Positions 50,989 to 63,927 of a DNA stretch of 64,000 nt are shown piece by piece. Positions within the stretch are counted from its first letter, which is position 1. Each line of letters begins with the position of its first letter. The notes beneath the pieces were generated by a model. It saw nothing but the letters and a program-made list of their open reading frames with translations, did not search any database and was not told the DNA's origin. Source of the stretch: an uncultured Bacteroidota bacterium (GTDB taxonomy: Bacteria > Bacteroidota > Bacteroidia > Chitinophagales > Chitinophagaceae); NCBI GenBank assembly GCA_903927185.1, contig CAIYLW010000007.1, positions 1-64,000 on the forward strand, written 5' to 3'. Position numbers and translations under genes: made by a program.

Positions 50989-51004
50989 TTTAATGCCAAA
51001 TATC

Positions 51005-51463
51005 ATGAAGAAGTTAGCTTTTATATTTTTTTTAATTGCATCACTGTTTGGTTGTAATTCAAAACAAGAACCCATCGAAAAAATTAAACTTCCTATTTCA
51101 GGTACCTGGAAATTACTTTCAGGTACTTTAATAGAACGGGGGGATACTATTATAACCGATTATACTAAATCTGTTTCTTTTATTAAGATAATTAATCAAA
51201 CCTACTTCTCTTTTTTAAAACACGATTTAAATAAAGGTAAAATTTCTACTGCAATATTCGAAGCTGGTGGAGGTACCTATTCTTTAATAGATAGTACATA
51301 TACAGAAAACCTGGACTATTGCAGTGCTCGCGAATGGGAGGGGAATACTTTTACCTTTACAATTACTATTCATAACGATACCCTCATACAACAAGGGATT
51401 GAGAAAATAGAAAAGTCGGGAATTAACCGAATGAACATCGAAAAGTATATCAGAATTAAGTAA
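51005..51463 (+). CDS. Lipoprotein, lipocalin-like
   Basis: A 152-residue lipoprotein, lipobox SLFGC near residue 17. The body, with ISGTWKLLSGTLIERGD near the start and alternating beta-type segments, resembles lipocalin-like Bacteroidota proteins. The chosen start is the ATG at 51005, whose product begins with a regular MKK signal peptide; an ATG at 50993 would add MPNI in front. Last gene of the galK unit. Function unknown. Confidence 0.7.
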   Translation: MKKLAFIFFLIASLFGCNSKQEPIEKIKLPISGTWKLLSGTLIERGDTIITDYTKSVSFIKIINQTYFSFLKHDLNKGKISTAIFEAGGGTYSLIDSTYTENLDYCSAREWEGNTFTFTITIHNDTLIQQGIEKIEKSGINRMNIEKYIRIK

Positions 51464-51485
51464 AAGTCATATTTTGGCGTATTAT

Positions 51486-51504
51486 ACTAACGAAAGTTAG
51501 TTTT
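51486..51504 (+). terminator. Short hairpin terminator after the lipoprotein gene
   Basis: ACTAAC / GTTAGT with a GAAA tetraloop, followed by TTT. It is 22 bp past the lipoprotein stop and upstream of the sulfur operon. The T-run is short, so termination may be partial. Confidence 0.5.
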
Positions 51505-51535
51505 CTGTGTCATAAAAGCGACTTTATTTAGAAGT

Positions 51536-51550
51536 CTACTAAAGAAATAG
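51536..51550 (+). promoter_or_regulatory. CTACT palindrome, site A (upstream of cysH promoter)
   Basis: CTACTAAAGAAATAG, with the left half-site intact and the right half degenerate. It ends 9 nt before the -33 box of the cysH promoter. One of six related sites in the sulfur locus. Confidence 0.55.
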
Positions 51551-51559
51551 GAATTATTT

Positions 51560-51589
51560 TTTGATGTCTCTCTCGAAATCGTATATTTG
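51560..51589 (+). promoter_or_regulatory. Bacteroidota-type promoter of the cysH operon
   Basis: -33 TTTG at 51560-51563 and a perfect -7 TATATTTG at 51582-51589 with an 18-nt spacer. Transcription should start near 51596, about 20 nt before the leader ORF and about 130 nt before cysH. It lies between palindrome sites A and B. Confidence 0.75.
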
Positions 51590-51590
51590 T

Positions 51591-51605
51591 TGACCGTTTA
51601 AGTAG
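51591..51605 (-). promoter_or_regulatory. CTACT palindrome, site B (overlaps cysH transcription start)
   Basis: On the - strand it reads CTACTTAAACGGTCA, with the extended half-site AGTCTACT intact and the other half weak. It starts 1 nt after the -7 box, covering the expected start point, a typical repressor position. Confidence 0.5.
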
Positions 51606-51617
51606 ACTATTACGAGT

Positions 51618-51680
51618 ATGAACCGATTTTCGCATAATAAACCTATGCCTTTCTGTTGCAAGAGCAAATGTTGCTGTTAG
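51618..51680 (+). CDS. Cysteine-rich leader peptide of the sulfate assimilation operon
   Basis: A 20-codon ORF: MNRFSHNKPMPFCCKSKCCC, then TAG. Five of the last eight residues are Cys, using both Cys codons. It begins about 20 nt after the expected transcription start and ends 47 nt before cysH. Short leader ORFs rich in the end-product amino acid are the known sensors of ribosome-mediated attenuation; polycysteine leader ORFs with this role have been described in mycobacteria. The downstream RNA can form competing stem-loops. I therefore infer a cysteine-responsive leader. A small thiol or metal-binding peptide is the alternative. No Shine-Dalgarno, as usual here. Confidence 0.75.
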   Translation: MNRFSHNKPMPFCCKSKCCC

Positions 51681-51723
51681 TTCTAACAGAATAACACAAT
51701 GCATATCATATTCACAACAGAAA
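51650..51723 (+). promoter_or_regulatory. Alternative RNA structures in the cysH leader
   Basis: The segment TTTCTGTTG at 51650-51658, within Pro11 and the Phe12-Cys13-Cys14 codons, is perfectly complementary over 9 nt to CAACAGAAA at 51715-51723, 4 nt before the cysH ATG. Its TTCTGTT part can instead pair with AACAGAA at 51685-51691. A separate hairpin CTGTTAG-TT-CTAACAG (51674-51689) contains the leader stop codon and excludes that second pairing. No T-run follows, so control of translation start or Rho-dependent termination is more likely than intrinsic termination. Confidence 0.5.
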
Positions 51724-51727
51724 TCAA

Positions 51728-52444
51728 ATGAACCACTCGCTACAACAAAATATTCCTAGTTTACAAAACCTACTTAGAGAGCTACCCCCTAATTTGTTTT
51801 TGCAAAAACTTTCTAAAGACTACGCAGGTGCTATAGTATTTTCTTCTAGTTTTAGTTTTGAAGATCAGGTGATTACTCATTTAATTGGTGATCAGCAATT
51901 GCCAATTCAAATCTTTACTTTAGATACAGGCAGATTATTTGCAGAAACCTATAGTGTATGGAGTAATACACTTGACAGATATAAAATATCGATCAAAGCA
52001 TATTATCCTAATGCTACTATTTTAGAGTCTTTTGTTGAAAAAAAAGGTCCAAATGCTTTTTATGAATCTGTAGAAAATAGAAAAGATTGTTGCTTTATAC
52101 GTAAAGTGGAGCCTTTGAAAAGAGCTTTATCTGGAAATGCAATTTGGATTACGGGTTTAAGAGCCGAACATTCTTCTGATCGCGGAGATTTACAATCTAT
52201 CGAATGGGATGAAAGTAATCAAATAATTAAGTATCATCCTTTATTGCACTGGACTACTAAACAAGTAACTGACTTTATTGCAACAAATAATATACCCTAT
52301 AATCCTTTACATGATAAAGGTTTCGTAAGCATTGGATGTGCTCCTTGCACACGAGCTATTAAAGAAGGAGAAGATTTTCGTGCTGGACGATGGTGGTGGG
52401 AAGATGCTAACAAAAAAGAGTGTGGTTTACATGTGCATCAATAA
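51728..52444 (+). CDS. cysH: Adenylyl-sulfate (APS) reductase, iron-sulfur type
   Basis: A 238-residue thioredoxin-dependent reductase of the CysH family that makes sulfite. The paired cysteines Cys121-Cys122 (in DCCFIRKVEPL) and Cys204/Cys207 (in GCAPC) are the [4Fe-4S] ligands that mark the APS-using bacterial type; PAPS reductases such as the E. coli enzyme lack them. The catalytic Cys is Cys232 in ECGLH. APS use agrees with the absence of an APS kinase (CysC) in the locus. First full gene of the operon cysH-cysD-cysN-cysE-cysK; preceded by a Cys-rich leader ORF. Confidence 0.92.
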   Translation: MNHSLQQNIPSLQNLLRELPPNLFLQKLSKDYAGAIVFSSSFSFEDQVITHLIGDQQLPIQIFTLDTGRLFAETYSVWSNTLDRYKISIKAYYPNATILESFVEKKGPNAFYESVENRKDCCFIRKVEPLKRALSGNAIWITGLRAEHSSDRGDLQSIEWDESNQIIKYHPLLHWTTKQVTDFIATNNIPYNPLHDKGFVSIGCAPCTRAIKEGEDFRAGRWWWEDANKKECGLHVHQ

Positions 52445-52490
52445 TGATGATTTTTAAATCTAAAAATTGGCTTAGCCTTTAATATAGAAG

Positions 52491-53399
52491 ATGAGTAACT
52501 ATCAATTAAATTATTTAGACCAGTTAGAATCTGAGGCCATTCATATTATGCGTGAAGTTGCTGGTCAGTTTGAGCGTCCTGCACTTTTATTTAGTGGTGG
52601 TAAAGATTCCATAACATTAGTTCATTTGGCATTAAAAGCTTTTCGCCCGGGTAAATTTCCTTTTCCCTTGGTGCATATTGATACTGGACATAATTTTCAG
52701 GAAGCTTTAGATTATCGAGATGCAATGGCAGAGAGAATTGGTGAAAAATTAATTGTTCGTCAGGTTACAGACACTATCAAATCTAAAAATCTAACTGAGC
52801 CAAAAGGAAAGTTTGCCAGCAGAAATGCTTTACAAACCTATACACTTTTAGATACAATTGAAGAGTTCAAGTTCGATGCTTGTATTGGTGGTGCTAGAAG
52901 AGATGAAGAAAAAGCAAGAGCTAAAGAGCGCATTTTTTCTGTGAGAGATGAGTTTGGTCAATGGAACCCCAAATTACAAAGACCTGAATTGTGGAATACC
53001 TATAATGGAAGAATCGATAAAGGAGAGAATGTACGCGTATTCCCGATTAGTAATTGGACAGAATTGGATATCTGGAATTATATCAAAAAGGAAAAAATTG
53101 AATTACCCTCTATTTACTTTTCACACGAAAGAGAAGTGATAGAACACGAAGGTCAATTAGTAGCTATGTCTGAATTTGTTCAACTAGAATCTACTGATAA
53201 GATCTCTCGTAAAAAAGTTCGATATCGCACTGTAGGTGATATGACTTGTACTGCTGCGATTGAAAGCAATGCCAGTACACTAGATGATATTATTACAGAA
53301 ATAATTGCCACTAAAACCAGCGAGAGAGGCGAGACAAGGATTGATGATCGTGTTAGTGAAGCTGCTATGGAAGATAGAAAAAAGAATGGTTATTTCTAA
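52491..53399 (+). CDS. cysD: Sulfate adenylyltransferase subunit 2
   Basis: A 302-residue ATP sulfurylase small subunit, which forms APS from sulfate and ATP together with the GTPase CysN. PP-loop SGGKDS at 35-40; the family stretches LVHIDTGHNF and GGARRDEEKARAKERIFS are present. Normal length. 46 bp after cysH and 35 bp before the chosen cysN start. Confidence 0.96.
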   Translation: MSNYQLNYLDQLESEAIHIMREVAGQFERPALLFSGGKDSITLVHLALKAFRPGKFPFPLVHIDTGHNFQEALDYRDAMAERIGEKLIVRQVTDTIKSKNLTEPKGKFASRNALQTYTLLDTIEEFKFDACIGGARRDEEKARAKERIFSVRDEFGQWNPKLQRPELWNTYNGRIDKGENVRVFPISNWTELDIWNYIKKEKIELPSIYFSHEREVIEHEGQLVAMSEFVQLESTDKISRKKVRYRTVGDMTCTAAIESNASTLDDIITEIIATKTSERGETRIDDRVSEAAMEDRKKNGYF

Positions 53400-53434
53400 G
53401 GGGATTGAAATTTTTTAAAGTAGAAGAATTTAAA

Positions 53435-54676
53435 ATGGATATATTAAGATTTATAACAGCTGGAAGTGTAGATGATGGGAAGAGTACCCTGATCGGTAGA
53501 CTTTTGTATGATAGTAAGTCGATCTTAATTGATCAACTAGAAGCGATTGAAAAGCAAACAAAAAATAGAGAAGACGGGGAATTGGATCTCGCTTTATTGA
53601 CAGATGGTTTGCGTGCAGAAAGAGAACAGGGAATTACTATTGATGTAGCGTACAAGTATTTTTCTACACCAAAGCGTAAATTTATTATTGCTGATGCACC
53701 TGGACATATTCAATACACAAGGAATATGGTAACCGGAGCTTCTAATTCTGATTTAGCTATTATATTAGTGGATGCCAGACATGGTGTTGTAGAACAAACC
53801 AGAAGACACTCCATTATTGCATCACTGCTAAATATTCCTCATGTGGTGGTTGCAGTGAACAAAATGGATTTAGTGGAATATTCTCATGATGTGTATAATA
53901 ATATTTTAATTGATTATGCAGCTGTTGCAAAATCATTAGGATTAAAAGATATTAGATATATCCCAATTAGCGCTTTAAATGGCGACAATATTGTAGATAG
54001 ATCTACCAATATGGACTGGTATGAAGGTGAGGGGCTTTTGCAAATATTAGAAAATGTTACATTAACAGATGATATTAATTTAACTGATGCTCGTTTTCCC
54101 GTGCAATATGTAATTCGCCCTCAAACTGAAGCGCTGCATGATTATCGCGGATATGCTGGTAAAGTGATTAGTGGAATTTATAAAAAAGGGGCTTCTGTAA
54201 CCATACAGCCATCAGGATTAACAACTACTATTTCAGCAATTGAAGTTGGTGGGGTAGAAGTGGATGAAGCATTTGCACCACAAAGTGCAGTACTTCATTT
54301 AGCCGATGATGTGGATGTAAGCAGAGGTGACTTAATTACTTTAACCGAAAATCAGCCATCAGTATCTAATGAATTAGAAGTTTTATTATGCTGGATGGAT
54401 AACAAACCTTTAATTGAAGGGAATAAATATCAACTACAAATTAATAGTCGCCTAGTTAGGGCAGTTGTGAAAGAATTCAAATATAAGGTGAATGTAAATT
54501 CATTAGAAAAAGAAACTGCTCCAGATAAGGTTCAATTAAATGATATTATCAAGGCAACTATAAAAACGGCTTCTCCCATACCATTTGATTCTTACCAACA
54601 TTTAAGAGTAAATGGTGGAGCAATATTAATCGATGAAACAAGTCATGTTACAGTTGGTGCATGCATGATCCAATAA
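53435..54676 (+). CDS. cysN: Sulfate adenylyltransferase subunit 1 (GTPase)
   Basis: A 413-residue EF-Tu-like GTPase that drives sulfate adenylation. G1 GSVDDGKS is at 10-17, G3 DAPGH near 88 and G4 NKMD. The start is placed at ATG 53435, which gives the usual short N-terminus; a TTG at 53405 would add 10 residues. The length leaves no room for a fused APS kinase (CysNC), consistent with an APS reductase. 6 bp before cysE. Confidence 0.94.
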   Translation: MDILRFITAGSVDDGKSTLIGRLLYDSKSILIDQLEAIEKQTKNREDGELDLALLTDGLRAEREQGITIDVAYKYFSTPKRKFIIADAPGHIQYTRNMVTGASNSDLAIILVDARHGVVEQTRRHSIIASLLNIPHVVVAVNKMDLVEYSHDVYNNILIDYAAVAKSLGLKDIRYIPISALNGDNIVDRSTNMDWYEGEGLLQILENVTLTDDINLTDARFPVQYVIRPQTEALHDYRGYAGKVISGIYKKGASVTIQPSGLTTTISAIEVGGVEVDEAFAPQSAVLHLADDVDVSRGDLITLTENQPSVSNELEVLLCWMDNKPLIEGNKYQLQINSRLVRAVVKEFKYKVNVNSLEKETAPDKVQLNDIIKATIKTASPIPFDSYQHLRVNGGAILIDETSHVTVGACMIQ

Positions 54677-54682
54677 AATTTT

Positions 54683-55516
54683 ATGACACAGAAAGAATTT
54701 ATAAATAATCTATTTAATCATAACTCGAAGAACTTCAATTTTTTTCCTGATAAAGAATTGGCAGAAGAGTTTATTGATAAGCTTTTTGCGTTCCTTTTTT
54801 TACCAAAAACTGTTAGGCATAAACAAGCTGCTGATTTAGAGAAAGAATTTGAATCATTGAAAAGTCATTTTTCCAGCTTAGTTTATGATGTTATTCCTGA
54901 TAGTGTGAAGACACAAGAAATTACGGATCAATTCTTTGAATCAATTCCTGATTTATACGATGGGTTAATATCTGATGCAAATACTATTTTACAATTTGAT
55001 CCTGCGGCTGTTTCAGTGGAAGAAGTATTGGTAGCATACCCTGGATTTTATGCTACTGCTATTTATCGGTTATCTCATTTATTGTGGATCCTGAATGTAA
55101 AAATCATACCCCGAATTTTTACAGAATATGCACATGGCAAAACGGGTATTGATATTCATCCAGGAGCAACCATTGGGAAGTCTTTTTTCATTGATCATGG
55201 AACGGGTATCGTAATAGGTGAAACAACAGTGATAGGAGATAATGTAAAAATTTATCAAGGAGTTACCTTGGGTGCATTAAATGTTTCAAAAGATAAAGCA
55301 AGTACTAAAAGACATCCCACGATTGAAGACAATGTAATTATCTATTCTGGGGCAACCATCTTAGGTGGAGAAACCGTTATAGGGCATGATAGTGTGATTG
55401 GAGGAAACGTTTGGTTAACCTATAGTGTTTTACCAAATTCTATTGTATACCATAAAAGTGAAGTAGCAGTAAAGGATAAATATCCTGATACAGAAGCTTT
55501 AAATTTTGTCATTTAA
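54683..55516 (+). CDS. cysE: Serine O-acetyltransferase
   Basis: A 277-residue enzyme that acetylates L-serine, giving the acceptor for sulfide. It has an alpha-helical N-terminal domain and a left-handed beta-helix with hexapeptide repeats (GIDIHPGATIGKSFFIDHG...GIVIGETTVIGDNVKIYQGVTLG), including the catalytic His in IDHGTG. The longer N-terminus resembles the EpsC type. 6 bp after cysN and 19 bp before cysK. Confidence 0.93.
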   Translation: MTQKEFINNLFNHNSKNFNFFPDKELAEEFIDKLFAFLFLPKTVRHKQAADLEKEFESLKSHFSSLVYDVIPDSVKTQEITDQFFESIPDLYDGLISDANTILQFDPAAVSVEEVLVAYPGFYATAIYRLSHLLWILNVKIIPRIFTEYAHGKTGIDIHPGATIGKSFFIDHGTGIVIGETTVIGDNVKIYQGVTLGALNVSKDKASTKRHPTIEDNVIIYSGATILGGETVIGHDSVIGGNVWLTYSVLPNSIVYHKSEVAVKDKYPDTEALNFVI

Positions 55517-55535
55517 AATATTAAAAATATAAATT

Positions 55536-56447
55536 ATGAAAGCAAATAATATTCTCGCAACAATTGGTAACACACCTCATGTGCGGTTAAACAAATTATT
55601 CGGATCTAATCACGAAGTATGGATTAAATTAGAAAAAACAAACCCTGGATCAAGTATTAAAGATCGTATTGCATTAGCAATGATTGAAGATGCAGAAGAA
55701 AAAGGATTGCTTAATAAAGACAGTATTATTATTGAACCAACATCCGGAAATACGGGTATAGGATTGGCATTAGTAGCTGCAGTAAAAGGATATAAAATAA
55801 TACTGGTAATGCCTGAAAGTATGAGTATTGAACGTCGAAGATTGATGTCATTATATGGCGCAGAGTTTGTATTAACCCCACGTGAAAAGGGAATGAAAGG
55901 AGCAATTGAGAAGGCAGGTGAACTGGTAAAATCAACTCTTAATGCTTGGATGCCACAGCAATTCGATAATCCAGCAAACACTGAGATACATCGTAAAACT
56001 ACTGCACAAGAAATTATGGCAGATTTTCCTGATGGGTTGGATTATATAATAACTGGGGTTGGTACGGGAGGACATATCACCGGTGTTGCGGAAGTTTTAA
56101 AAGCAAAATTTCCTAACCTGAAAGTATTTGCTGTTGAACCAGAATTGTCACCAGTTTTAAGTGGAGGTGCTCCAGGGCCCCATCCATTGCAAGGGATAGG
56201 AGCTGGTTTTGTTCCTTCTATTTTAAATACAAAAATATTGGATGGCATTATTACTGTTTCAAAAGAAGAGGCATACGAATATGCACAACAAATTGCTAAG
56301 CAGGAAGGTATTTTAGTTGGTGTTTCTACAGGGGCTTCTCTTGCTGCTGTTGCTAAGAAGCTTTCTGAGATTCCTGTTTCATCAAAAGTGTTGACTTTTA
56401 ATTACGATACCGGAGAAAGATATTTATCAATCGAAGGATTATTTTAA
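55536..56447 (+). CDS. cysK: Cysteine synthase A (O-acetylserine sulfhydrylase)
   Basis: A 303-residue PLP enzyme that joins sulfide with O-acetylserine to make L-cysteine. The Schiff-base lysine is Lys42 in GSSIKDR; SGNTG and [10 protein letters not shown] bind substrate and phosphate. The [18 protein letters not shown] segment favours CysK over CysM. Ends the first sulfur unit; a palindrome and 64 bp follow before cobA. Confidence 0.93.
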
Positions 56448-56491
56448 TGGCCTCTTGAAAGTAGTAAACGAATTTCGCGTAAATTAAAAAC

Positions 56492-56506
56492 CTACTTAAA
56501 TAGTAG
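56492..56506. promoter_or_regulatory. CTACT palindrome, site C (before cobA)
   Basis: Perfect arms CTACT / AGTAG around TAAAT, 5 nt before the cobA ATG. It separates the cysHDNEK unit from the cobA-cysJ-cysI unit and would block or control the latter. Confidence 0.6.
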
Positions 56507-56511
56507 ACTAT

Positions 56512-57348
56512 ATGCATAAAATTGTAAGTTTTGGAAAAGTGATTTTAGCAGGTGCCGGTTGTGGCGATCCCGAATTAATTACGGTAAAAGCTGCACGCTA
56601 TTTACAAGAGGCTGACTTAGTAATAACAGACAGGCTTGTAAGTAAGGCTATTCTGGATACTTATGTGTCGGCTAACACGCCTATTATTTATGTAGGGAAA
56701 CAGTGTAAGCAAAAGGGTTCTACGCCTCAAGAAAATATCAATCAATTATTAGTGGATTACGCTGCGGATAAAAAATTAATTGTACGATTAAAAGGTGGTG
56801 ATACTGCTTTCTTTTCTAATATTCTAGATGAGTTACAAACTCTGATGGATGCAGGTATTAGATATGAAATAATTCCAGGAATTACAGCAGCTTCAGGAGC
56901 TTCTGCTTATGCGGGTATTCCATTAACAGCAAGGGGGTATGCCACTTCAGTTAGATTTTTAACTAGTTATAATGATAAAGTTTTAGATGAGAATTATTGG
57001 CGGGAAATTGCTAAAACACCTGATACACTTGTCTTTTATATGTCATCAAACACATTAGATCAACTCGTTGATAAATTAAAAGAACATGGTATTTCAAATG
57101 ATAAGAAAATTGCTGTTGTTTCACAAGCAACTACACCCTTTCAACAAGTTCAGTTAGGAAGTTTTGATGCGTATGAAACGGAGTTAAAAGGGAAATTATT
57201 TATATCTCCATCATTAGTAATAGTTGGAAAAGTAGTGACACTACACGAATCTTTCCATTGGTATAATAATAAAAAAAAGGATGAATACTATTTTAAACCG
57301 GTAGAAGAACTGGTTCAAAATGTGTTACCAAAAAAAGCGATATGTTAA
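56512..57348 (+). CDS. cobA: Uroporphyrinogen-III C-methyltransferase
   Basis: A 278-residue SUMT that methylates uroporphyrinogen III twice to precorrin-2, the start of siroheme synthesis. The N-terminal GAGCGDPELITVKAARYL and later VVSQATTPFQQ are typical. Siroheme is the cofactor of the sulfite reductase encoded two genes on. It lacks the dehydrogenase/ferrochelatase domain of CysG, which must be supplied elsewhere. Its stop overlaps the cysJ start by 7 nt, so the two are translationally coupled. Confidence 0.93.
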   Translation: MHKIVSFGKVILAGAGCGDPELITVKAARYLQEADLVITDRLVSKAILDTYVSANTPIIYVGKQCKQKGSTPQENINQLLVDYAADKKLIVRLKGGDTAFFSNILDELQTLMDAGIRYEIIPGITAASGASAYAGIPLTARGYATSVRFLTSYNDKVLDENYWREIAKTPDTLVFYMSSNTLDQLVDKLKEHGISNDKKIAVVSQATTPFQQVQLGSFDAYETELKGKLFISPSLVIVGKVVTLHESFHWYNNKKKDEYYFKPVEELVQNVLPKKAIC

Positions 57349-59039
57349 CAGCGGAAAAGCATGCAATTTTAAAATCCTTGATCGATACTTCTTCTCCAGA
57401 TGAATTGAAATGGATCAAAGAATATTTATCTAGTTTAATAAGTGATAAAAATATAATCACTTTAAATGCTGGCGCGAATGCATCAGTGAAAAAGTTGACA
57501 ATTGTTTATGGAACTGAAACAGGAAATTCGAAAAAATTAGCAACAGACTTTGCTAGCAAAGCGAAGAAGAAACAGATACAAACAAAGCTGGTTAGTTTAG
57601 ATCAATATAGGCTCAATGATTTATTGAAAGAGGAATTATTTGTAACTGTTATTAGTACTCAGGGTGATGGAGAACCACCAGCGGCTGCACTAAAATTTTA
57701 CGATCATATACATCAAAATGGATTTAAATTACCTAATCTTCAATATGCGGTACTAGCTCTAGGTGATAGTTCTTATCCACTATTTTGTAAAGCCGGAGAA
57801 GATGTAGACGAACAACTTTCAGCGTTAGGAGGTAAAAGAATCGTAACTATTCAGAAATGTGATGTTGATTATGAAGTTGAGGCAGATGCATGGTTTGAAA
57901 GTTTGCTTAGTGAACTTAATTCTTCCGTACCCCATTTTAATCAAACTGAAAAGAAGCCAGAATCAGTTACAAAAACTTCCAGCAAAATAATTTATCAAGG
58001 AAAGGTACTTACACATCTTAATTTAAATGATAGGGGATCGAATAAGGAAACCTGGCATATTGAAATTGCAGCAGATTCTCTTGTATACGAATCTGGAGAT
58101 TCTGTAGGTATTGTTCCAAAAAATAATGAGGAACTTGTTCATTCAATAATACAACTGGTTAAAGTTAATCCCAATCAGCTGGTCAACTATAAATCAGAAT
58201 CATTAAGTATTTACGATTTATTAAAATATAAACTCAATATTTCCAATCTGAATGAAAAGGTTGTTAAACGTTATGCTGATATTACGCAACAAACAATTCC
58301 AATTACAAAGAGTGATTTATTAGAACTTTTAAATAATTATTCATTAAAATCGGGAGATCAATTTATTGAGGTACTGCAAAGTTTAAATCAACAATCTCCC
58401 AGATTATATACGGTCTCTTCCTCTCCTGTAGCAACAGATGGGGAAGTACATATCACTGTGGCAAGAGATATTTTCTGGATTGAAGAGAAAAAGAAATTTG
58501 GATTATGTTCTGATTATTTAAGTACTATTAATGAGAATGAAACCATTGAATTCTTTATACAAAAAAACAAACGGTTTAAACTTCCTTCAGAAGATAAAGA
58601 TATCATTATGATTGGTCCCGGTACTGGTATTGCTGCATTTCGTGGATTTCTTTCTGAAAGAGAAGCTATAGGTGCCACCGGAAGAAGTTGGTTATTCTTC
58701 GGGGAACAGCATTTTGAAAAGGATTTTTTATATCAAACAGAAATTCAAAATTGGGAGGCTACTGGTACACTTACGAAAGTGAACGTAGCTTTTTCGAGAG
58801 ATCAGAAAAATAAAATTTATGTACAAGATCGAATGTTGAGCAATGGGGCTGAGCTCTATCAATGGATACAAAATGGGGCTTATATATATGTATGTGGAAA
58901 GAAAGACCCTATGAGTTTGGATGTAGAAAAAACTTTAATTGAGATTGTTCAACAATATGGTAATAAAACATTGGAAGAATCTAAACAATTCATCACTGAA
59001 TTAAAGGATACTCATCGCTATCATAAAGATGTTTATTAA
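57342..59039 (+). CDS. cysJ: Sulfite reductase flavoprotein subunit
   Basis: A 565-residue diflavin reductase that passes electrons from NADPH to the hemoprotein. An FMN flavodoxin domain (about 50-190, VYGTETGNSKKLA and STQGDGEPP) is followed by an FAD domain (RLYTVSSSPV) and an NADPH domain (GPGTGIAAFRGFL, YVCGKKDPM). The family-typical C-terminus DVY is retained. 39 bp before cysI. Confidence 0.94.
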   Translation: MLTAEKHAILKSLIDTSSPDELKWIKEYLSSLISDKNIITLNAGANASVKKLTIVYGTETGNSKKLATDFASKAKKKQIQTKLVSLDQYRLNDLLKEELFVTVISTQGDGEPPAAALKFYDHIHQNGFKLPNLQYAVLALGDSSYPLFCKAGEDVDEQLSALGGKRIVTIQKCDVDYEVEADAWFESLLSELNSSVPHFNQTEKKPESVTKTSSKIIYQGKVLTHLNLNDRGSNKETWHIEIAADSLVYESGDSVGIVPKNNEELVHSIIQLVKVNPNQLVNYKSESLSIYDLLKYKLNISNLNEKVVKRYADITQQTIPITKSDLLELLNNYSLKSGDQFIEVLQSLNQQSPRLYTVSSSPVATDGEVHITVARDIFWIEEKKKFGLCSDYLSTINENETIEFFIQKNKRFKLPSEDKDIIMIGPGTGIAAFRGFLSEREAIGATGRSWLFFGEQHFEKDFLYQTEIQNWEATGTLTKVNVAFSRDQKNKIYVQDRMLSNGAELYQWIQNGAYIYVCGKKDPMSLDVEKTLIEIVQQYGNKTLEESKQFITELKDTHRYHKDVY

Positions 59040-59078
59040 TAAGAATTCCAATCACAATATTATAACTTAATATAAAGC

Positions 59079-60755
59079 ATGTCAAAGCAAGAGAAACTAT
59101 CAATCATAGAAAAAATAAAAACTGAAAGTAAGGGACTCCGAGGGTCAATTATCGAAAGTTTACAGGATGAATTAACAGGAGCTATCCGTGAAGAAGATCA
59201 AGCTGTGATTAAATTTCATGGGATGTATCAGCAAGATGATAGGGATCGTAGAGAAGAAAGAGCTGAGAAAAAGTTAGACCGCCTGTATAGTTTTATGATT
59301 CGTTTGAGATTGACCGGTGGGTTTCTCAAACCAGAACAATGGGTTGCCACGCATGATATTGCTGGTGAACATAGCACGGGAGTGATTAAAATTACCAGTC
59401 GGCAAACTGTTCAATTACATGGTCTGATTAAGTCGCATATTAAACCAACTATACAAGCTTTTAATGCAGCTAAATTGAATTCAATTGCAACTTGTGGAGA
59501 TATTAATCGCAATGTACTTTGTAGTTCACATCCTGGAGAGTCGCCAATTCATGAACAAATATTTGCGTATGCAGATAAGATCAGTGAATTGCTTTTGCCC
59601 AAAACGAGAGCTTATTATGAAATTTGGCTGGATGAAGAAAAGTTGATAGATAAAAAAGAGGAAGAAGATCCATTATATCAAGATAGATACTTACCAAGGA
59701 AATTTAAAATTGCTATTGCCATTCCTCCTAATAATGATGTAGACGTATATGCCAATGATTTAGGTTTGATAGCGGTGATTGAAGATAATAAGTTGATTGG
59801 ATTTAATATTGCGATTGGTGGTGGATTAGCTACCACACATGGCAATCCTGAAACTTATGCTCGTTTAGCTACCGTAATTGGGTTTTCGGATAGTGAAGAA
59901 AAAATAATGTCGGCTATTTATGAAATACTAACTATTCAAAGGGATTATGGCAACCGTTCTGACCGTAAATTATCTCGTCTAAAATATACCGTTGATAAAT
60001 TGGGCGTGCCATGGTTTAAAGCAGAATTAGAAAGAAGAATTGGATTTAAACTTGGTAAAGAACGCGATGTAAAAATGACTCAAAGAGTTGATCATTTTGG
60101 TTGGAAAAAAAATATGGCAGGTAAATGGTTCTATACCATTTTAGTTGAAAATGGAAGAATACTTGATACAGTTGATTTGCCTTTAAAAACAGCTTTGTTG
60201 GAGGTGGCAAAAACAGGGAAAGCAAATTTTAGATTTACCTGTTCACAGAATTTAATATTGAGTGATATCGCAGCAGATGATAAAAAACTGATTCATGAAA
60301 TACTAGATCGTTTTGGAATTATTAATTATACCGAAACCAGTTCTGCAATTCGAAAAAATAGTATGGCTTGTGTGGCGTTGCCTACCTGTCCGTTGGCATT
60401 AGCGGAAGCACAAAGATATTTCCCTGATTTAATTACTAAGTTGGAGCCCATTTTATTGAAACATGGATTAGAGGAAGATGGCATAGTGATGCGCATGACA
60501 GGTTGCCCGAATGGATGTGCCAGACCATATGTAGCAGAAATTGGTTTTGTTGGAACAGCTACTGGTAAATATAACTTGCACCTGGGCGGTGATAGGCAAG
60601 GGGAAAGACTTAATAAAATATATCGTGAAAGTTTAGATGAATCACAAATTCTCCACACACTCGATAAATTATTTCACATCTATTCTAAAGAAAAAATGGT
60701 TGATGAAACCTTTGGAGATTTCGCGGTGAGAAAAGAATGGGTGGAATACGATTAA
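59079..60755 (+). CDS. cysI: Sulfite reductase hemoprotein subunit
   Basis: A 558-residue siroheme and [4Fe-4S] enzyme that reduces sulfite to sulfide with six electrons. The cluster ligands follow the C-X5-C...C-X3-C pattern: Cys431, Cys437 (ACVALPTC), Cys476 and Cys480 (TGCPNGC). The duplicated ferredoxin-like halves are present. Full length. Ends the cobA-cysJ-cysI unit. Confidence 0.95.
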   Translation: MSKQEKLSIIEKIKTESKGLRGSIIESLQDELTGAIREEDQAVIKFHGMYQQDDRDRREERAEKKLDRLYSFMIRLRLTGGFLKPEQWVATHDIAGEHSTGVIKITSRQTVQLHGLIKSHIKPTIQAFNAAKLNSIATCGDINRNVLCSSHPGESPIHEQIFAYADKISELLLPKTRAYYEIWLDEEKLIDKKEEEDPLYQDRYLPRKFKIAIAIPPNNDVDVYANDLGLIAVIEDNKLIGFNIAIGGGLATTHGNPETYARLATVIGFSDSEEKIMSAIYEILTIQRDYGNRSDRKLSRLKYTVDKLGVPWFKAELERRIGFKLGKERDVKMTQRVDHFGWKKNMAGKWFYTILVENGRILDTVDLPLKTALLEVAKTGKANFRFTCSQNLILSDIAADDKKLIHEILDRFGIINYTETSSAIRKNSMACVALPTCPLALAEAQRYFPDLITKLEPILLKHGLEEDGIVMRMTGCPNGCARPYVAEIGFVGTATGKYNLHLGGDRQGERLNKIYRESLDESQILHTLDKLFHIYSKEKMVDETFGDFAVRKEWVEYD

Positions 60756-60778
60756 AAAATCTATAAATTATTTAAAGT

Positions 60779-60793
60779 CTACTAAAATAGTAG
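60779..60793. promoter_or_regulatory. CTACT palindrome, site D (upstream of TonB receptor)
   Basis: CTACTAAAATAGTAG, a perfect palindrome with TCTACT...AGTAGG context, 24 nt after cysI. Paired with site E, 64 bp downstream. Confidence 0.65.
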
Positions 60794-60842
60794 GAAATGT
60801 AATATCTTCGCAAAGATTTAAATATTATTGCATTTATTAAGT

Positions 60843-60857
60843 CTACTAAAATAGTAG
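60843..60857. promoter_or_regulatory. CTACT palindrome, site E (upstream of TonB receptor)
   Basis: A second identical 15-mer, CTACTAAAATAGTAG, 15 nt before a short leader ORF. The pair D/E repeats the layout of sites A/B at cysH. Confidence 0.65.
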
Positions 60858-60871
60858 AGTAAAATATAGTT

Positions 60872-60901
60872 ATGATTGAGAATTTGAAGTTTCGATGTTG
60901 A
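60872..60901 (+). CDS. Possible short leader ORF before the TonB receptor
   Basis: Nine codons, MIENLKFRC, then TGA. It starts about 22 nt after the centre of site E, as the cysH leader starts 20 nt after the centre of site B, and it ends in a Cys codon. With one Cys only, it could be chance. Confidence 0.3.
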   Translation: MIENLKFRC

Positions 60902-60916
60902 AGCATTCTTGTTAAT

Positions 60917-60935
60917 AAGGGATTTATTCCCTTTT
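60917..60935 (+). promoter_or_regulatory. Weak hairpin in the TonB receptor leader
   Basis: AAGGGA / TCCCTT with a 5-nt loop, followed by TT. It lies 15 nt after the short leader ORF. It may be a weak terminator or attenuator. Confidence 0.3.
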
Positions 60936-61020
60936 CTTCCCATTACAATTTAAAATTAAAACTGATATCTAATTGGGTATAAATAAAATTTTACCCTAAC
61001 CCCACAATTAAATAGTTATA

Positions 61021-63897
61021 ATGAAAAAAATAATTTCCCTTCTTTTTTTGGTAGCACCATTTTTAACCCAAGCTCAATTAAATGGAACTCTTTTATTGAG
61101 TGGCAAAGTAGTGGGCGAAAATCATGATGGCATTCCCTCTGCAAGTATTTCCATAAAAGGAACAAAGCTTGGAACAGTTTCTGATTCAAGCGGAAAATTT
61201 TCTTTAGTGATTAATCAAAAGCTACCCTTCCGAATTGTTATTTCCTCTTTAGGATTCACTGATCAAGAAATTGAAGTAAAATCAACAACTGATAAATTAG
61301 CTATTCAATTAACAACACAAACCTATATTGCTAATGAAGTGGTTGTTACTGCAAGTAGAACTTCAGAGAAATTAATGCGATCTCCTGTAAGTATTGAAAA
61401 GCTTGATCTCAAAGCATTGAAAGAAACTCCGGCAGCCTCATTTTATGATGCATTAGGAAATGTAAAAGGCATTCAACTAACAACTTCATCTCTTACCTTT
61501 AAAATTCCGAATGCAAGGGGATTTAATATACCGAATAATTTCCGATTCATGCAATTGGTTGATGGGGTTGATATGCAAGCTGCTACTCTAGGTGTGCCAT
61601 TAGGTAATGCAATCGGACCTACAGAACTGGATATACAAAGTGTAGAAATTACTCCAGGCGCAGCCTCTGCTTTATATGGTATGAATGCCATTAATGGGAT
61701 GGCCAATTTGATATCAAAAAATCCATTTACGAATCAAGGATTAAGTGTTTTTCAGCGAGTTGGTGTAAACCATATAGATGGAATAGATCATGCGCCAAGT
61801 ATGTTAACTGAAACTGCTTTTCGGTATGCCCGAGCTTTTAATAAAAAGTTTGCACTCAAATTGAATTTTGGATTTATGCGAGGTACTGATTGGTCGTCTA
61901 ATACCCAAAATGATCAGAACCCCAATAATTTAAATACTGCTAATCCAGCATATCCTGCACTAAATGGATCAAATAATCCAGCTGCCGATTTATGGAATCG
62001 ATATGGTGATGAAAGTAATAATTCGGTTACTATTAATGGAGTTAATTATGGGGGTGGAAGTAAAACATTTATCTTAAGAAGAACTGGATATCTAGAAAAA
62101 GATCTGGTAAAACCAATTGTTGCTAATATAAAATTTGATGTTGCTTTACATTATAAAATAACTCCTAATACCGAGCTGTCTTATGGTTATAGGTTCGGAA
62201 AAATGGATGGCGTATTTCAACGTGGTAACAAAGTTCAATTAGATAATGCATCTGTACAAAATCATAAATTAGAATTGAAAGGCAAAAACTTTTTTGTCAG
62301 ATCATATGTTTCGATTGAAAATACTGGAGACTCTTATAACCTAAAACCTTTAGCTGATAATCTTCAATTAACCCAATCATCAAATTCGGTTTGGGGTTCA
62401 AAATTCAAGTCGGTATTACAAAGCTCATTGAACGCAGGACAGGATCTTGCTACTGCTATGAAAACTGCACGAGTAGCTGCAGACCTCGGTAGAGTTGAAC
62501 CGGGTACTTCAGCATTTGATGCCCTTCGTGATACCATTATTAAAATAAATAATTGGGATCATATTAATGCTGGGATTGCTGGTGCACCTAGAACCGGTGG
62601 TGCATGGTTGCTTCAAAAAAGCAGAATGTATCAAACCGAAGCTCAATGGGATTTGACTAATGCAGTAAAGATTGTGAACTTATTAATAGGACTTGATTAT
62701 CGTTTATATGAAGTAATTCCGGATGGTAATAATTTTGTTGACTTTTTCAGACCTGTAGCAGATCGTAATATACCATTACCTGATGGAAGCTTTGGGAAGC
62801 TGATACATTATCGTAAATATGGTGCTTTTGCACAGATTACAAAAACATTTTTTGATGATCATTTAAAATTATTTGCTTCAATTAGATATGATCGAAATCC
62901 AGAATTTAGTCCGAAAATTAATCCTCGAATTGCTGCAGTTTATACAGTTGCAAAAAATCACAATTTTCGTGTTTCTTTTCAAAACGGATTTAGATTCCCT
63001 TCTTTATTTGAAGCATTATCTTTTGTGAATAATGGAGGTGTAAGAAGAGTTGGTGGATTATCGTTTATAAATCAAGGATTAGGATATCTTGAAAATTCTT
63101 ATACACTTAATTCCATAAATAATTTCAATGCTGCTGTTAATACAGACGTCACTTCTGGCTCAACAGCAAATGCAGCGGCTTTGAAAAATAGAGGATTATT
63201 AGAAGTAACTAATTTAGCAACTACAAGACCTGAAAAAATTAATTCTTTAGAAGCTGGTTATAAATCTTCTATTTTAAATAATAAATTAGTGATTGATTTT
63301 GATGCTTATTATAATGTATATGATGGATTTTTAGGGCAGGTGGATGTGGCTGTGCCTGAAAATAATGCAATACAGGTAGGAACTGATGCAGCAGTAGTAG
63401 ACATGCTTGCAAGTAATAAAAGTAAACAAACACGTTATCGTGTTTTTACAAATGCAAAAAACAAGTATACAAACTATGGATCGGCATTAGGTCTGTCCTG
63501 GAATTTTTATAAAACTTTCAGCATATCGGGTAATATCAATTATAATGATATTAAGAAAAATAACACAACCGACATTTTCGTAACAGGATTTAATACAGCC
63601 AAATGGGGAACTAACTTTGCATTTGGTAATAGAGAAATCTTAAGAAATTTTGGATTTAATATTGTGTGGAAATGGCAGGATGCTTATGTGTGGGAAAGCC
63701 CATTGGTTAATGGCGATGTTCCTGCGTTCAATACGGTAGATGCACAAGTTACTTTACGTGTTCCTTCACTTAAAGCAACTATCAAAGTTGGAGGTGCTAA
63801 TATATTGAATATTAGATATATTCAATATGCTGGTGGACCTACTATAGGAGCACTTTACTATACTGCCATTACATTGGATGGATTATTAACCAAATAA
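61021..63897 (+). CDS. TonB-dependent outer-membrane receptor
   Basis: A 958-residue receptor with a signal peptide (about 1-18, LTQAQ), a carboxypeptidase-regulatory-like domain at about 23-100 (LSGKVVGENHDGIPSASISIKG), a plug (about 115-235, with ELDIQSVEITPGAASALYGMNAINGMANLISK) and a 22-strand barrel. No SusD partner follows in the window. Large loops suggest a bulky ligand. It is controlled, by position, by the same palindrome as the sulfur genes, so an organosulfur compound, or a cofactor needed for sulfur metabolism, is a reasonable guess for its ligand. Confidence 0.9.
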   Translation: MKKIISLLFLVAPFLTQAQLNGTLLLSGKVVGENHDGIPSASISIKGTKLGTVSDSSGKFSLVINQKLPFRIVISSLGFTDQEIEVKSTTDKLAIQLTTQTYIANEVVVTASRTSEKLMRSPVSIEKLDLKALKETPAASFYDALGNVKGIQLTTSSLTFKIPNARGFNIPNNFRFMQLVDGVDMQAATLGVPLGNAIGPTELDIQSVEITPGAASALYGMNAINGMANLISKNPFTNQGLSVFQRVGVNHIDGIDHAPSMLTETAFRYARAFNKKFALKLNFGFMRGTDWSSNTQNDQNPNNLNTANPAYPALNGSNNPAADLWNRYGDESNNSVTINGVNYGGGSKTFILRRTGYLEKDLVKPIVANIKFDVALHYKITPNTELSYGYRFGKMDGVFQRGNKVQLDNASVQNHKLELKGKNFFVRSYVSIENTGDSYNLKPLADNLQLTQSSNSVWGSKFKSVLQSSLNAGQDLATAMKTARVAADLGRVEPGTSAFDALRDTIIKINNWDHINAGIAGAPRTGGAWLLQKSRMYQTEAQWDLTNAVKIVNLLIGLDYRLYEVIPDGNNFVDFFRPVADRNIPLPDGSFGKLIHYRKYGAFAQITKTFFDDHLKLFASIRYDRNPEFSPKINPRIAAVYTVAKNHNFRVSFQNGFRFPSLFEALSFVNNGGVRRVGGLSFINQGLGYLENSYTLNSINNFNAAVNTDVTSGSTANAAALKNRGLLEVTNLATTRPEKINSLEAGYKSSILNNKLVIDFDAYYNVYDGFLGQVDVAVPENNAIQVGTDAAVVDMLASNKSKQTRYRVFTNAKNKYTNYGSALGLSWNFYKTFSISGNINYNDIKKNNTTDIFVTGFNTAKWGTNFAFGNREILRNFGFNIVWKWQDAYVWESPLVNGDVPAFNTVDAQVTLRVPSLKATIKVGGANILNIRYIQYAGGPTIGALYYTAITLDGLLTK

Positions 63898-63912
63898 AAA
63901 TTATTGGAAAGT

Positions 63913-63927
63913 CTACTAAGAAATCAG
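63913..63927 (+). promoter_or_regulatory. CTACT half-palindrome, site F (after TonB receptor)
   Basis: CTACTAAGAAATCAG, left half-site intact with AGTCTACT context, 15 nt after the receptor stop. It may serve the gene beyond the window. It lies inside a GGAAAG/CTTTCC hairpin, which lowers confidence. Confidence 0.3.

Follow-up and report, generated by a model that had tools for sequence, protein, structure and literature searches.

A cysteine-tailed leader ORF upstream of cysH is a probable cis-acting attenuator of the cysteine operon in Chitinophagaceae

Results

The cysteine operon and the short ORF ahead of it

We analyzed a 64,000-nt stretch of DNA (hereafter, the window) from an uncultured Bacteroidota bacterium that is assigned in GTDB to the family Chitinophagaceae. 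The window carries a presumed operon in which eight genes lie on the same strand in the order cysH-D-N-E-K-cobA-J-I (Table 1). The product of the first gene scored above the NCBIfam cut-offs for phosphoadenylyl-sulfate/thioredoxin-dependent adenylylsulfate reductase (CysH). The names of the operon genes are those of the best NCBIfam matches; the match to the cysJ model was under the model's own cut-off, and cysE was above the cut-off for the EpsC serine acetyltransferase model only. Since the operon contains cysE and cysK and makes cysteine from sulfate, Cys codons would be a fitting sensor and cysteine the right feedback signal for its control. Directly after the operon, behind two operator-like palindromes, lies a gene for a TonB-dependent receptor (61021-63897) that, at a guess, could serve in the uptake of sulfur compounds.

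A sequence-only reading of this DNA had proposed that a Cys-rich leader peptide is encoded ahead of cysH. Translation reproduced the proposed ORF to the exact base: it encodes MNRFSHNKPMPFCCKSKCCC followed by a stop codon, five of its last eight codons are Cys codons, and 47 nt separate its stop from the cysH start. The same reading had placed a consensus promoter upstream of the ORF. The elements present there (TTTG and TATATTTG) are of the Bacteroidota kind; a scan for E. coli–type promoters found none on the + strand at this place. TAnnTTTG is the Bacteroidota promoter consensus quoted in PMC9723704, and the promoter stretch GTATATTTGT showed no variation in an alignment of the window with eight close relatives. 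Transcription is predicted to start a few bases 3′ of position 51589, which would leave a 5′ UTR of about 20 to 25 nt before the leader ATG.

A search of Rfam gave no match at E ≤ 1 in positions 51000-53000, so no known riboswitch or RNA family was matched and a known riboswitch was ruled out for this region. No NCBIfam model matched the leader ORF. The whole case for the leader made below is computational.

Table 1. Features of the leader region and the cysteine operon (window coordinates)
Feature	Position	Strand	Basis or remark
Inverse copy of AGTAGACT, possible distal operator half-site upstream of the promoter	51533..51540	-	Sequence search
Bacteroidota-type promoter	51560..51589	+	TTTG at 51560-51563 and TATATTTG at 51582-51589
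AGTAGACTA, within the predicted 5′ UTR; likely operator of an Rrf2-type repressor	51601..51609	+	Invariant in nine aligned sequences
Cys leader ORF, MNRFSHNKPMPFCCKSKCCC	51618..51680	+	20 codons and stop; conservation in relatives
P1 5′ arm, UUCUGUUG, in Phe-Cys-Cys codons 12-14	51651..51658	+	Invariant in 9/9 aligned sequences including the window
P2, a local hairpin spanning the final Cys codons and the stop, CTGTTAGTTCTAACAG	51674..51689	+	Predicted fold; conserved in part
P1 3′ arm, CAACAGAA, 13 to 6 nt upstream of the cysH ATG	51715..51722	+	Most conserved eight gap columns
cysH, phosphoadenylyl/adenylyl-sulfate reductase, first gene controlled	51728..52444	+	NCBIfam
cysD, cysN, cysE, cysK, cobA/cysG, cysJ, cysI, remainder of presumed operon	52491..60755	+	NCBIfam, ORFs
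CTACTTAAATAGTAG palindrome immediately upstream of cobA, candidate Rrf2-type operator	56492..56506	.	Pattern search
First of a pair of CTACTAAAATAGTAG palindromes separating cysI from the TonB-dependent receptor gene	60779..60793	.	Pattern search
CTACTAAAATAGTAG palindrome, second of the pair, before the TonB-dependent receptor gene	60843..60857	.	Pattern search

Cys-tailed short ORFs precede cysH far more often than by chance

CysH relatives came from named genome contigs (80 loci), from 13 of 60 relative genomes, from 114 of 394 genomes of the phylum (E ≤ 1e-50) and from 183 of 294 genomes of the family. Upstream regions, taken from the loci that the searches returned and from 100 regions, were inspected for 31 of the 114 phylum and 135 of the 183 family genomes matched; the lower-scoring CysH matches, including all of families f36 and f37, were left out at this step. 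Dropping 14 identical upstream regions reduced the 247 loci to 233, and dropping two regions under 250 nt (L041 and L206, each with a Cys tail) reduced them to 231. We counted as a leader an ATG-started ORF of 8 to 45 codons that has at least three Cys among its last ten codons and ends 20 to 160 nt before cysH, a definition that overlooks some likely leaders (L006 and L221).

A Cys-tailed short ORF was found in 97 of the 231 distinct regions, which are related by descent, so that the leaders counted are not independent events. By comparison, 30 sets of dinucleotide-shuffled regions averaged 1.5 positives and never exceeded 4, and the reverse strand gave 2. When at least five of one amino acid were required in the ORF tail, Cys gave 59 ORFs and each other amino acid none; when at least three were required, the runner-up after Cys was Leu, with 25. 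These figures bear out the earlier claim that the Cys run is very unlikely by chance. A chance ORF, a reading that the very short length and the lack of an NCBIfam model might favor, was rejected as extremely unlikely, being contradicted both by the excess over the shuffled regions and by the conservation described below.

The positives comprised 66 of the 127 distinct loci in the GTDB family of the window (the other 61 having no leader as defined here), 31 of 76 named loci and none of 28 loci from other families. In total, 30 of the 49 genera sampled in the family, plus Rufibacter, contained leaders. We also scanned 8340 short ATG ORFs (8 to 45 aa, both strands) from the window and 94 loci: those with at least four Cys in the last nine codons were the ORFs ahead of cysH, with the exception of L033-, L049+2595, L094+ and seven minus-strand Chryseobacterium frames. 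TGYTGYTGYTRR matched 53 places in the window's genome. Among the 30 of these that were inspected, three ended an ATG-started ORF, namely the cysH leader and two ORFs antisense inside genes, and no second Cys leader was present.

The Cys tail is the conserved part of the leader

The sequence-only reading had staked the leader on conservation in close relatives, and the frame and the Cys run were kept in all eight of the closest relatives aligned. The leaders of the window and these eight relatives align codon by codon. Across genera, little but the Cys tail appeared by eye to be retained, as in MVSISLHMRCCCCCSCC, MTYQTIYCCCCCFC and MKNLAHIKYICCCCC. The leaders have a median length of 20 aa (range, 13 to 45), a median of 5 Cys and a median gap to cysH of 58 nt, and their Cys codons are TGT (349) and TGC (179). 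Since only the Cys tail is kept between genera, it seems to be the codons being read, rather than the peptide product, that are under selection.

In a CysH tree of 136 rows, 57 of which have a leader, 53 of the leader-bearing rows fell into one group of 60 rows (support 93/89). Inside this group are four Rufibacter (Hymenobacteraceae) rows with a Cys leader (L043, L046, L048 and L051). Their position amid rows of Chitinophagaceae and of unnamed Bacteroidota, together with the presence of the leader, suggests that the operon was passed to Rufibacter along with its leader.

None of the 40 Weeksellaceae loci had a leader; at the one of these that was checked, Chryseobacterium locus L053, an Rrf2 gene precedes cysH. 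A divergent Rrf2 gene adjoins cysH in two Chitinophagaceae loci without a leader (L040 and L047), and in some of 22 other leaderless loci inspected by eye cysH lies behind another gene or has an operator-like site directly before it. In L262, a member of the family without a Cys leader, a SAM riboswitch (L262:443-550; Rfam RF00162, 90 bits) is followed by an operator-like site and cysH; the riboswitch is a different RNA sensor in the leader's place. Seven Ferruginibacter loci (L024, L026, L029, L031, L036, L038 and L039) have in common a long conserved sequence in the leader–cysH gap (GGCTAAATTTTTTGCAGACT and similar), and in several Ferruginibacter loci a U-run follows it.

A conserved complementarity could couple the Cys codons to the cysH start

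In all nine members of the window's clade (the window and the eight close relatives), the 8-nt sequence UUCUGUUG is complementary to CAACAGAA, which begins 11 to 13 nt before the cysH start; we refer to the predicted helix as P1. Both arms were invariant (9/9), whereas the gap columns 127-162 of the alignment averaged 60% majority identity. As P1 never varies in these nine related genomes, it yields no covariation, and no compensatory changes were found in the nine sequences. The covariation of the three-helix structure as a whole did not differ significantly from that of shuffled columns (0.074 against 0.064, with 121 of 500 shuffles as high), and folding of the 86-nt region was unremarkable (z −1.35; 15 of 200 shuffles folded as well).

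The effect of a ribosome on this fold was examined with a footprint model, in which about 28 nt around the ribosomal A site were masked. The cysH start of the window was 0.52 unpaired without a ribosome. With the A site at codons 9-19, which include Cys 13, 14, 18 and 19, it was 0.67 to 0.71 unpaired, and with the A site at Cys 20 or at the stop codon it was 0.58 unpaired. In this model, a stall at four of the five Cys codons of the window opens the cysH start to a modest degree. The other eight members of the clade gave similar results, their limits lying at codon 18 or 19. When the stall was placed at the first Cys of the tail, the start opened beyond shuffled gaps (p ≤ 0.05, 30 each) in eight of the nine loci of the clade, as compared with 13 of 88 loci outside it, where 4.4 were expected.

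Perfect helices of at least 8 bp joining the leader tail to the final 24 nt ahead of cysH were found in 9/9 members of the clade (0.2 expected) and in 4 of 89 loci outside it (1.6 expected), one of these four being without Cys codons. A proximal duplex test was positive in 6 of 88 loci outside the clade. A P1-like helix common to the whole family was thus unsupported by the stall, duplex and helix tests. Other sequences stand in the role of P1 in g242 (UGCAAUUGUU/AACAAUUGCA, two loci) and L041 (GUUGUUGU/ACAACAAC), as does a 7-bp helix, CGUGUUG/CAACACG, in L137 and L231; these possible alternative helices in a few other loci are suggestive and not clearly above chance. A general "anti-Cys" motif before cysH (RCARCA) was weak, occurring in 11 of 97 leader-bearing loci versus 10 of 150 others.

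Rho-dependent termination as a rival or partner

The Cys leader might act together with Rho. When cysteine is plentiful, the ribosome would come off at the leader stop, Rho would load on the unstructured, pyrimidine-rich gap, and transcription would be ended before or early in cysH, which a stalled ribosome or an altered fold would prevent. The composition of the gaps is consistent with this scheme: their C/G ratio is 2.08, and C outnumbers G in 92 of the 97, whereas control regions (the 58-nt stretches ahead of other genes at these loci) have a ratio of 1.12, with C in excess in 40 of 74; the trinucleotides TCC, CCC, TTC and TCT are 2.4 to 3.2 times as frequent as in the controls. Moreover, the same genome encodes Rho, and a similar idea has been proposed for mycobacterial cys leaders (PMC1262725). 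The gaps of the window's clade are, however, A-rich (23 A, 10 C, 3 G and 11 T in the window) and poorer in YC dimers (0.105 versus 0.132 elsewhere), and a low G content may simply serve to leave the cysH start open. Any rut site in the gaps is putative. Because the gaps are C-rich and G-poor and Rho is encoded, a Rho step must be taken seriously as a rival or partner in most of the family, and it may act outside the window's clade, where the P1 helix is mostly absent. As an account of the leader we consider it rather unlikely, although of appreciable weight.

Candidate Rrf2-type operators and the peptide reading

The window contains six exact copies of AGTAGACT, every one of them within 51532-63917; when one mismatch is allowed, the 9-mer shows no over-representation (11 versus 9.4 by chance). 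The pattern CTACT-N5-AGTAG occurs at six places in the genome, not above the reversed control pattern (8). Three of the six (56492, 60779 and 60843) fall within the operon or ahead of the gene that follows it, and one precedes a peroxiredoxin gene (L132); such sites could possibly mark an Rrf2 regulon of sulfur and redox genes. A search with a paired-operator pattern gave no match. The genome encodes two Rrf2 proteins, one of which (L287) shares 48% identity over 95 residues with the Rrf2 encoded beside cysH in Chryseobacterium L053, and the members of the Rrf2 family include the cysteine regulator CymR (PMC5015018). Since Rrf2-type palindromes are present in the operon, the leader is probably not its sole control, and a repressor and the codon-sensing leader would probably act in series.

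These operator candidates and the two Rrf2 proteins, including the one resembling the Chryseobacterium protein, could also be taken to mean that regulation proceeds by Rrf2-type sites only and that the ORF encodes a working Cys-rich peptide with a role in metal or thiol chemistry. We regard this as highly improbable, given that between genera the Cys tail alone is kept in ORFs of widely differing length whose remainder looks unrelated by eye, and that the place just ahead of cysH is conserved.

No intrinsic terminator was found in the window's gap

The leader and the gene order resemble those of classical attenuators, in which an intrinsic terminator would lie between the leader and cysH. A strict terminator scan flagged none of the 97 leader–cysH gaps. 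A looser scan, which recovers the E. coli trp control, flagged terminator-like sites in 17 of 97, some of them in Ferruginibacter and Rufibacter; the window, whose 47-nt gap is without a U-run, was not among them. With no intrinsic terminator found on the + strand of its gap by either scan or by a separate terminator scan of the window, the window's leader is not a trp-type transcription attenuator, and a switch of cysH translation fits better. An intrinsic-terminator attenuator was therefore rejected for the window, and classical transcription attenuation has, in our estimate, a very slim chance of explaining the leader.

A poly-Cys uORF before a PhyH gene in another family

We scanned 119 genomes of the class for five Cys codons plus TRR and inspected 30 loci. 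Four ATG-started ORFs ended in a Cys run, of which three were antisense to long ORFs and one was a clear new leader; a search of plasmids gave no hit. A poly-Cys uORF unrelated to the cysH leader lies before a PhyH-domain gene in a genus (g40; at a guess, Flavobacterium) of another family (f24), at L305/L320 (3638-4444) and L321-L331. In the 81 genomes searched, a run of 4 to 8 Cys was kept in all 11 loci with the PhyH-domain gene. The uORF stops right after the Cys tail, 52 to 54 nt before the gene, in four of them, and in the other seven it continues past the gene start in another frame, overlapping the start. A CTACTAA-N3/4-ATAGA-like (Rrf2-like) site at the promoter, defined by a pattern of our own, precedes 10 of the 11 loci.

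Discussion

The ORF ahead of cysH is very likely a Cys-sensing leader. We put at roughly 75% the probability that it is a cis-acting attenuator of the cysteine operon, most likely operating through cysH translation, and within the window's clade the footprint model and the conserved complementarity make a translational switch via the P1 helix somewhat more probable than not. Such a switch would work as follows. The leader ORF would be translated, and with ample charged tRNA-Cys the ribosome would pass both Cys clusters and reach the stop codon. The vacated Phe-Cys-Cys codons (UUCUGUUG) could then pair with CAACAGAA, concealing the cysH start; cysH would be left untranslated, and the operon would in addition become open to Rho-type polarity. 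In a cysteine shortage, the ribosome would stall on uncharged tRNA-Cys with a Cys codon in the A site and cover the 5′ arm, so that the cysH start would be freed and the operon expressed. Cysteine starvation would thereby derepress cysH, and the effect would presumably reach over the whole operon.

The sequence-only reading had pointed to polycysteine leader ORFs of mycobacteria as a precedent, which is indeed found in the literature (PMC1262725; PMC13236596, citing Canestrari 2020). Leader ORFs with Cys runs were predicted in 2005 before cys operons (Mycobacterium, P. acnes) and, in B. longum, before cbs (PMC1262725). The mycobacterial ORFs of Canestrari et al. (2020, Mol Microbiol) are cited in PMC9094748 and PMC13236596, the latter of which describes the M. 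smegmatis genes as being under translation attenuation. As far as these sources describe them, the mycobacterial leaders resemble the present one in being short ORFs that precede a cys operon, have Cys codons close to the stop and lack a conserved terminator hairpin; here, too, the Cys run lies near the stop before cys genes and is kept across species, and no terminator was found in the window's gap. They differ in belonging to another phylum and, going by the title of the 2020 paper, in being leaderless, whereas a 5′ UTR is predicted here. In addition, the cysH start would be hidden here without a Shine-Dalgarno site, and Rrf2-type sites stand alongside.

Among other presumed sensors of tRNA-Cys charging, the uORFC-8-2 motif before cysS in Rhodobacterales has tandem Cys codons in a uORF (PMC8632094). 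As described there, that motif controls cysS and has two Cys codons and a terminator-like U-run, whereas the present leader precedes an operon for sulfate reduction and cysteine synthesis and no terminator was found. Within the same phylum, leader-peptide attenuation has been suspected in Flavobacterium psychrophilum, where pheA and hisG are among the conserved structured elements (PMC9723704); that case likewise concerns amino acid operons but differs in being one of transcription elongation control, and the section describing it does not mention cysteine. Short ORFs reminiscent of leader peptides have been noted in B. thetaiotaomicron (PMC7366714). We found no report of a Bacteroidota cysteine leader in the open-licence PMC papers searched.

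In ermC, a ribosome stalled on the leader frees the start of the next gene; that system senses an antibiotic and hides a Shine-Dalgarno site. The proposed switch is like ermC in that a leader-stalled ribosome would free the next start, and unlike it in what is sensed and in what is hidden, translation in Bacteroidota starting mostly without Shine-Dalgarno pairing. This type of translational attenuation is named in PMC2965389. Viewed by kind, the terminator hairpin and U-run that follow a trp-type leader were not found, and the conserved complementarity between leader codons and the next start that marks a hidden-start attenuator is present in 9/9 of the window's clade, the pairing itself being predicted.

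We tentatively propose, as an idea with somewhat less than an even chance of being correct in full, that Bacteroidota evolved Cys-codon leaders apart from Actinobacteria, that these hide a start lacking a Shine-Dalgarno site to switch its translation and act beneath an Rrf2-type repressor as a second layer, and that the device was used more than once: before cysH in Chitinophagaceae, from which it was passed with the operon to Rufibacter, and as the unrelated uORF before the PhyH-type dioxygenase gene in another family of the class. If this is true, amino-acid sensing by leader codons would extend to cysteine in Bacteroidota, and the control of a start mostly without Shine-Dalgarno pairing by a stalled ribosome would become testable at one defined helix. 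It would also mean that an unannotated family of 20-codon genes stands before a central metabolic operon in many genera, and would offer a reporter route to reading the cysteine status of these cells.
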